Shown here in pieces: positions 830-1,204 of a DNA stretch of 15,520 nt. Origin of the DNA: Promethearchaeota archaeon (GTDB taxonomy: Archaea > Asgardarchaeota > Lokiarchaeia > Sigynarchaeales > SOKP01). Positions within the stretch are counted from its first letter, which is position 1; each line of letters starts with the position of its first letter. A program made the translations under genes and the position numbers. The notes beneath the pieces are model-generated. The model was not told the origin of the DNA. It searched no databases and saw nothing but the letters and a program-made list of their open reading frames with translations. The DNA is taken from positions 1 through 15,520 of the forward strand of contig DAOUUT010000055.1 in the NCBI GenBank assembly GCA_030668025.1, given 5' to 3'.

Positions 830-1204
830 TTGTTTAAATTATCGTTCTCAAAAACGGCTTTGGAGTATATTTTTGAAGAACAACAAAAAATTAAATCAGA
901 AAAATTAGTAGTAGTACTTTTTTATCATTCCGCTGAATCGTGAACAATGTGCTTCTGTGGGAATTTTGTCGAGTTAGTAGAAAAATACAAACTCCTAGAT
1001 GACCACGATTTTGTCGAATGGAAGAACATTGACATTGAAAACGAAAACTTTGAGGACCTGCGTGTGGAGGTTTACATCGAAAAAAATATCATTCCTGAAT
1101 TGGAAAATAAACCATTAATTATAGTGGATGCAGCAATAGGAGAAGTAGAAGGTAAAAAAGTAGGTATGTTGTTTATAAAAAAAAATTCAAATGTATACGG
1201 TTAA
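830..1204 (+). CDS. Candidate selenoprotein: thioredoxin-like small protein with in-frame TGA (Sec) in a UxxC motif
   Basis: The frame is open from TTG 830 to TAA 1202-1204 (124 residues) except for one TGA at 941-943 (residue 38). A hydrophobic strand LVVVLFYHS leads into A-E-S-[TGA]-T-M-C-F-C, so the TGA codon sits three residues before Cys41, exactly where a thioredoxin-fold protein has the first Cys of CxxC. A helix follows (about 44-56), and later a strand KPLIIVD (about 100-106) whose Pro could be the cis-Pro of the fold. Sequence on both sides of the TGA is equally protein-like, and GGTGA stands before TTG 830. The gene is therefore best read as a selenoprotein with Sec38 and Cys41 forming a selenenylsulfide redox pair. 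Without Sec decoding, only an 85-residue fragment from ATG 947 remains. Known: Lokiarchaeota have been reported to encode Sec and to use eukaryote-like SECIS elements. Alternatives: nonsense mutation (pseudogene) or sequencing error. The substrate is unknown. Confidence 0.6.

Follow-up and report, generated by a model that had tools for sequence, protein, structure and literature searches.

A cut-short Lokiarchaeal gene very probably encodes a selenoprotein with a predicted IscA/SufA/HesB-type fold

A cut-short Lokiarchaeal gene very probably makes a selenium-containing protein, and would belong to a selenoprotein family of Lokiarchaea and related Asgard archaea in which only the selenocysteine (Sec) form has been seen so far. 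The gene occupies positions 830-1204 of the forward strand of the window, the whole 15,520-nucleotide stretch of Promethearchaeota DNA that was analysed, and is supported by profile search, codon reading and dN/dS. From a TTG start, positions 830-1201 translate into 124 residues when TGA is read as Sec, followed by a TAA stop at 1202-1204. The only TGA lies at 941-943 (codon 38), so the single frame with one interruption described in the initial annotation is borne out. GGTGA at 822-826 on the same strand is a likely ribosome-binding site, and GGTGA or GGTAA is found in the same place in most of seven relatives. The codon aligned to TTG 830 is ATG in L036, L038 and L039, GTG in L005 and L041, and isoleucine in L006 and L040. 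A standard gene caller run on this stretch yields only an 85-residue ORF at 947-1204, the fragment that public records also annotate, in agreement with the earlier expectation that gene callers drop the Sec-containing part. The first two strands of the predicted model, and helix 1, fall outside this fragment. TGA is the stop codon in 4 of the 15 other window ORFs for which stops are listed, so there is no wholesale change of the genetic code.

A scan of GTDB genomes with the window protein gave seven loci, all with TGA at the aligned codon and all titled Lokiarchaeota or Lokiarchaeia. When 227 Asgard genomes were searched with a family profile, 33 places were found in 29 genomes, and TGA was present in 30 of these places, corresponding to 26 of the 227 genomes. 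Of the three places lacking it, L057 is a fragment at the end of a contig that breaks off ahead of codon 38, and the others are marginal profile matches, L058 and L059 (E 0.005 and 0.008, respectively). The latter is HesB-like by eye, has neither Sec nor Cys at the site and was rejected. Codon-by-codon reading took in 27 of the 30 TGA places (L031-L056 and L060). In all 27 there is one TGA, at the aligned position, and in none is it replaced by Cys or another sense codon; L046 and L056 contain an extra TAA within the matched stretch. This recurrence speaks against a sequencing error at TGA 941, an option that the initial annotation had raised. The ratio dN/dS, calculated over 36 pairs from nine genes of equal length, was 0.34 5' of the TGA and 0.18 3' of it, and both parts of the protein, before and after this codon, are under purifying selection. 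A second, more divergent TGA copy lies near the first in L051/L060, L053, L054 and L055 (genomes G114, G154, G156 and G106).

Among the 120 protein matches listed from public databases, out of 140 hits, none has Cys at the Sec38 site, so that a check for homologues with Cys or TGA at this codon gave TGA in 27/27 loci and Cys in none of the listed proteins. Ninety-nine of the 120 begin within a few residues after the Sec site and the other 21 show Trp there. From residue 40 onward, P0002 is identical to P0022, a fragment called from the same coding sequence; the Trp is a TGA read by another code (table 4), which is established for the pair P0002/P0022 only. With the divergent paralogues as queries, 11 proteins were obtained, nine with Trp at the site and two starting after it. 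Trp is found where genomic relatives have TGA in metagenome proteins P0002-P0004, P0008, P0033, P0036-P0045 and others, apparently through gene calling under another code, and Trp in such public metagenome proteins may be a flag for hidden selenoproteins.

The 3' ends of 27 genes (the window gene and 26 loci), from the last codons onward, were aligned as RNA (alignment A6). The 3' end of the gene is a eukaryote-like SECIS element with strong covariation, located at 1193-1269 on the forward strand. Its core (1208-1244) comprises AUGA at 1208-1211, a helix of 1212-1220 with 1232-1241 (bulge at 1237), an apical-loop AAA at 1223-1225 and UGAU at 1241-1244, and the pattern across the alignment is AUGA, helix, apical AAA and (U/C/G)GAU. 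AUGA is replaced by AUAA in L036 (genome G144) and by AUGU in L040 and L041, which are either real variants or errors. Over 27 distinct rows, 86.5% of cells were paired, compared with 78.6% in shuffled alignments and 37-51% with slid partners; as the counted structure was drawn after viewing the alignment and the alifold result, some of its margin over the slid partners follows from its construction, and the shuffles and a prediction test are the better controls. Changes on both sides were seen in 17 of 21 pairs, against 8.1 in shuffles. All nine pairs of the core helix have such changes, with 96.7% of cells paired. The outer stem (1193-1200 with 1262-1269) is the weakest part, at 72.2%; its 5' half overlaps the last codons, V-Y-G, and the conservation of these residues may be due to it. 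A second hairpin lies directly 3' of the core at 1247-1260, inside the outer stem (88.9% and 93.6% of cells paired). The layout is thus three-way, and this hairpin between core and outer stem covaries in the family. A similar hairpin was noted, by eye only, after the SelD genes of the same genomes (L019-L030). Asgard eSECIS-like elements with AUGA and GA have been described (PMC11227280), and the window element is like them in its AUGA/GA quartet and apical adenines.

Components of the Sec machinery were counted in the genomes of the seven relatives, as distinct from the window's own genome. SepSecS was found in 7/7, over the cut-off in six, and SelD, over the cut-off and with one TGA, in 7/7; FlpD genes with TGA were also present in all seven. 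PSTK-like matches were obtained in 7/7, all short of the cut-off, with E <= 2e-40 in six and 1e-4 in G005; as the PSTK model also matches weakly in 9/14 controls, little weight attaches to the match in G005. A tRNA-Sec model scored above its gathering score in one of the seven genomes, and ordinary tRNAs also match this model in all 14 controls. In four loci checked, a tRNA-Sec match lies beside SepSecS, with 53.9 bits in L009 and 28.0 bits (E 0.061) in L008, L010 and L011, the latter three falling below the gathering score. The initial annotation had asked for the Sec machinery; of the components it named, SepSecS, SelD and a PSTK-like gene are present in all seven relatives, and a tRNA-Sec match lies beside SepSecS in these four loci. 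The tRNA-Sec-like gene upstream of SepSecS in L008, L010 and L011 has 31 bases inserted in its T arm. A tRNA-Sec intron has been reported for Lokiarchaeota (PMC9499178), and the T-arm insertion agrees with it.

The claim that UGA 941 encodes Sec was upheld by the conserved TGA, purifying selection and the SECIS element at 1193-1269, the strongest of these lines of evidence and one that the initial annotation had missed; on these sequence features insertion of Sec at this codon is very probable. The ribosome would read UGA 941 as Sec by means of archaeal/eukaryotic-type machinery, directed by the eukaryote-like SECIS, whose core lies just 3' of the TAA and whose outer stem would reach into the last codons. 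Reading of the UGA as Trp, or by unspecific readthrough, would fit the Trp at position 38 of some public proteins; however, the identity of P0002 and P0022 makes this Trp a table-4 reading, TGA ends other genes in the window, and both SECIS and Sec machinery are present, so that this explanation has very little probability. Equally improbable is a true stop, with the 85-residue ORF as the gene, or a pseudogene or assembly error. Although the short form is what public records annotate, it would miss two strands and a helix of the predicted model, the same TGA recurs at every locus read, the part upstream of it is under purifying selection and the SECIS is conserved.

The initial annotation had proposed Sec38 and Cys41 as a redox pair in a UxxC site of a thioredoxin fold. 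Column 41 is Cys in the window protein but C, S, A, T, F or I across relatives, whereas Cys43 (TGT at 956-958, forward strand) is invariant in 24/24 members of the family alignment A3, so the conserved partner is the latter. The motif at this site is U-T-M-x-x-C-G-N, with U-x4-C spacing. A single exception to Cys43 was found among database proteins (P0031, with Asn). Cys43 is kept in the family and its paralogues.

The proposed thioredoxin fold was likewise not supported. In the predicted model the Sec loop is followed by a beta strand (41-51) and not by a helix, and the PDB matches of the predicted models are IscA, SufA and similar proteins, with IscA first for both models. Ten IscA/SufA/HesB-type entries head the PDB structure list (VIA) for both, and no thioredoxin-fold chain is among the structure matches listed there, an absence that carries no weight against such a fold; a Foldseek search with the better model returned no IscA among the best 50. 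PDB sequence searches with the family gave nothing useful. On the predicted models, the fold is very likely that of IscA/SufA/HesB proteins (A-type carriers). Sequence comparison gave mixed results. Compared directly, the family and the Asgard HesB profiles were scored as 17% and 6% probable, and a second Asgard HesB group (A8) as 1.9%. The window protein has no match to PF01521; 2/24 members match, with a best E of 0.055, below the gathering score. DUF6568 matches 4/24 members, and its best match (L003, E 0.00033, below cut-off) is better than the best for PF01521. DUF6568 may be a thioredoxin-like family; a literature search on it found no report. Both the weak match to DUF6568 and the low score in the direct comparison with HesB speak against the IscA-type reading. 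Matches to PLK4_bind_CEP192, DUF5893 and TIR were below cut-offs, differed between members and were discarded.

An indirect route links the family to HesB proteins. Three small ORFs found through their SECIS elements (L136, L138 and L139) match the family at 95%, with P 3.9e-8 over 110 columns and Sec on Sec, and match Asgard HesB at 76%, with P 2.4e-5 and Sec on the GCxG Cys. Through this profile chain, Sec38 falls on the GCxG cysteine of HesB proteins. Each of the three also matches PF01521 (E 0.0012-0.0077, below cut-off). In a joint alignment of 13 sequences, Sec/Cys is the sole invariant column, the four HesB rows having been picked and all having the GCxG Cys; this Cys is missing in 9/15 Asgard HesB-type proteins (alignments A7 and A8). 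A comparison of profiles A9 and A10 was set aside as evidence, with three sequences common to both sides. L136 and L138 lack Cys43, and in L139 it is displaced by one position; the Sec/Cys43 pair is therefore not shared across the wider group.

An oxidoreductase of thioredoxin fold with a UxxC site, suggested by the hydrophobic strand that precedes Sec and, if DUF6568 is thioredoxin-like, by its match in 4/24 members, is very improbable given the variable column 41, the strand rather than helix 3' of Sec and the IscA-type entries that top both lists. A PrxQ-like protein was considered too, PrxQ having CxxxxC spacing, and was rejected: the window protein does not match PF00578 (AhpC/TSA) at E <= 10, this family is absent from the 21 matched by A3 members, and the predicted fold is not that of thioredoxin. 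Separate PF00578 genes with one TGA are present in four of the seven relatives' genomes. The preferred product is thus a small protein of predicted IscA/SufA/HesB fold in which Sec would replace the GCxG cysteine. In IscA-type proteins this cysteine is a cluster ligand, and A-type carriers need C-terminal Cys ligands. No conserved C-terminal Cys is found in alignment A3, where the family terminus is NVYG, and Sec38 and Cys43 are the only conserved chalcogen residues of the family; on both grounds a Sec38-Cys43 selenenylsulfide redox cycle would be the most likely chemistry. The missing C-terminal ligands argue against the same selenoprotein, with the same fold, being a seleno-variant A-type carrier in which Sec38 would bind a metal or Fe-S cluster together with Cys43 or a partner subunit. 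Yet Sec sits at the position of the cluster-ligand Cys, the wider group retains Sec and not Cys43, and a cation ATPase adjoins the gene, and the ligand reading keeps a substantial minority share of the probability. A redox rather than a metal-ligand role for Sec38 is slightly favoured, and the full reading, a Sec-only offshoot of the A-type-carrier fold with a putative Sec38/Cys43 redox pair, has about an even chance of being correct.

The neighbour in divergent orientation is a gene for a Ca-type (IIA) P-type ATPase, a type assigned by NCBIfam on the L003 homologue; its N-terminal part lies at 3-719 on the reverse strand and is truncated where the window begins. For the full homologue (L003), the models that score best are PMR1- and SERCA-type Ca pumps, below cut-offs. 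The ATPase is divergent from the selenoprotein gene in 24/26 family loci, with gaps of 85-313 bases; of the two loci where it was not seen, L004 offers no more than 502 bases of upstream sequence, and in L055 no ATPase lies within 1026 bases. The two genes would have a common promoter region and perhaps a common function. On the other side of the gene, positions 1479-2582 contain two genes of 191 and 171 residues, membrane-like by eye, and homologues of this pair adjoin the selenoprotein gene in many of 22 loci compared.

As a prediction test, a covariance model (R1) was built from the 27 SECIS sequences and searched against 222 genomes, giving 42 sites in 33 genomes at E <= 0.01. Twenty-six are training sites and the 16 others comprise three just after family paralogues, six that were read and seven remaining. 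L137, outside the training set, lies 3' of a gene of VhuD type that contains two TGA codons (FlpD, E 3.5e-43), a known kind of selenoprotein. The sites in L083, L136, L138 and L139 lie 3' of frames in which a single TGA follows the first Met (L083:1160-1507, L136:1145-1501, L138:1141-1506 and L139:1615-1947 on the reverse strand), and these small genes are probably more Sec-containing HesB-group members in Asgard archaea. No ATPase gene was found within about 1.15 kb upstream of these four. At L133 (about 1501-1595, genome G122) the element adjoins the same ATPase, has core-helix mismatches and has no gene in front of it; it resembles a relic left by loss of the selenoprotein gene. In another search with the model, five sites with E 0.3-0.7 looked like chance. 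The model gave no match in 12 SelD loci, where likeness in the 3'UTR is by eye only. A lineage-specific, Sec-only branch of the A-type-carrier fold in Asgard archaea, with one SECIS type and several subfamilies (the window family, the tandem paralogues and the genes in L083, L136, L138 and L139), is a speculative extension and rather unlikely.

The family adds one to the seven Asgard selenoprotein families in the accessible part of PMC11227280, it includes paralogues in tandem, and R1 indicates others beyond it; with the added family and the R1 sites, the count of selenoproteins in Lokiarchaea looks too low, and starting a search from SECIS elements can find the remaining ones. A family without any Cys form seen is unusual and hints at selenium-requiring chemistry. 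The large set of SECIS elements with an extra 3' hairpin bears on the origin of eukaryotic SECIS elements.

No NCBIfam model matches the window protein at E <= 10. As far as the accessible text of PMC11227280 goes, the reported Asgard selenoproteins are SelD, FrhA, HdrA, FrhD, a Prx-like protein, an AhpF-N homologue and a DsbA-like protein; the window family shares organisms and machinery with these seven and is none of them, and the earlier statement that this is not a common archaeal selenoprotein therefore holds. The same portion of that paper describes a search whose starting point was known families, and which would overlook a new one. In the accessible text of a 2026 review (PMC13188914), no U-x4-C family is listed and the string is absent, and no report of the family was found in the portions available of the literature on Asgard IscA, Promethearchaeota selenoproteins and Lokiarchaea HesB. 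On the sources searched, the family is new. It resembles the archaeal HesB-like selenoprotein TIGR01911 in being small, of the HesB/IscA group and with Sec at a GCxG-type site. That model does not match the window protein at E <= 10, matches 1/24 members at E 0.053 and is over its cut-off in 0/222 Asgard genomes. Its motif, in the accessible text of PMC13188914, is UxGP, in contrast to U-x4-C in the window family. The CC/Se motif family of Moorella type (NF041239) has a weak likeness to 2/24 members, best E 0.17 and none over the cut-off; for the SECIS-found L138 and L139 its E values are 0.0015 and 0.019, again short of the cut-off, and its motif is given there as CxxU rather than U-x4-C. From the A-type carriers of PF01521 the window family differs in having Sec for Cys, in being without the C-terminal Cys ligands and in scoring below the Pfam cut-off, and it is like them in its predicted fold and in the alignment of its Sec with the GCxG Cys.
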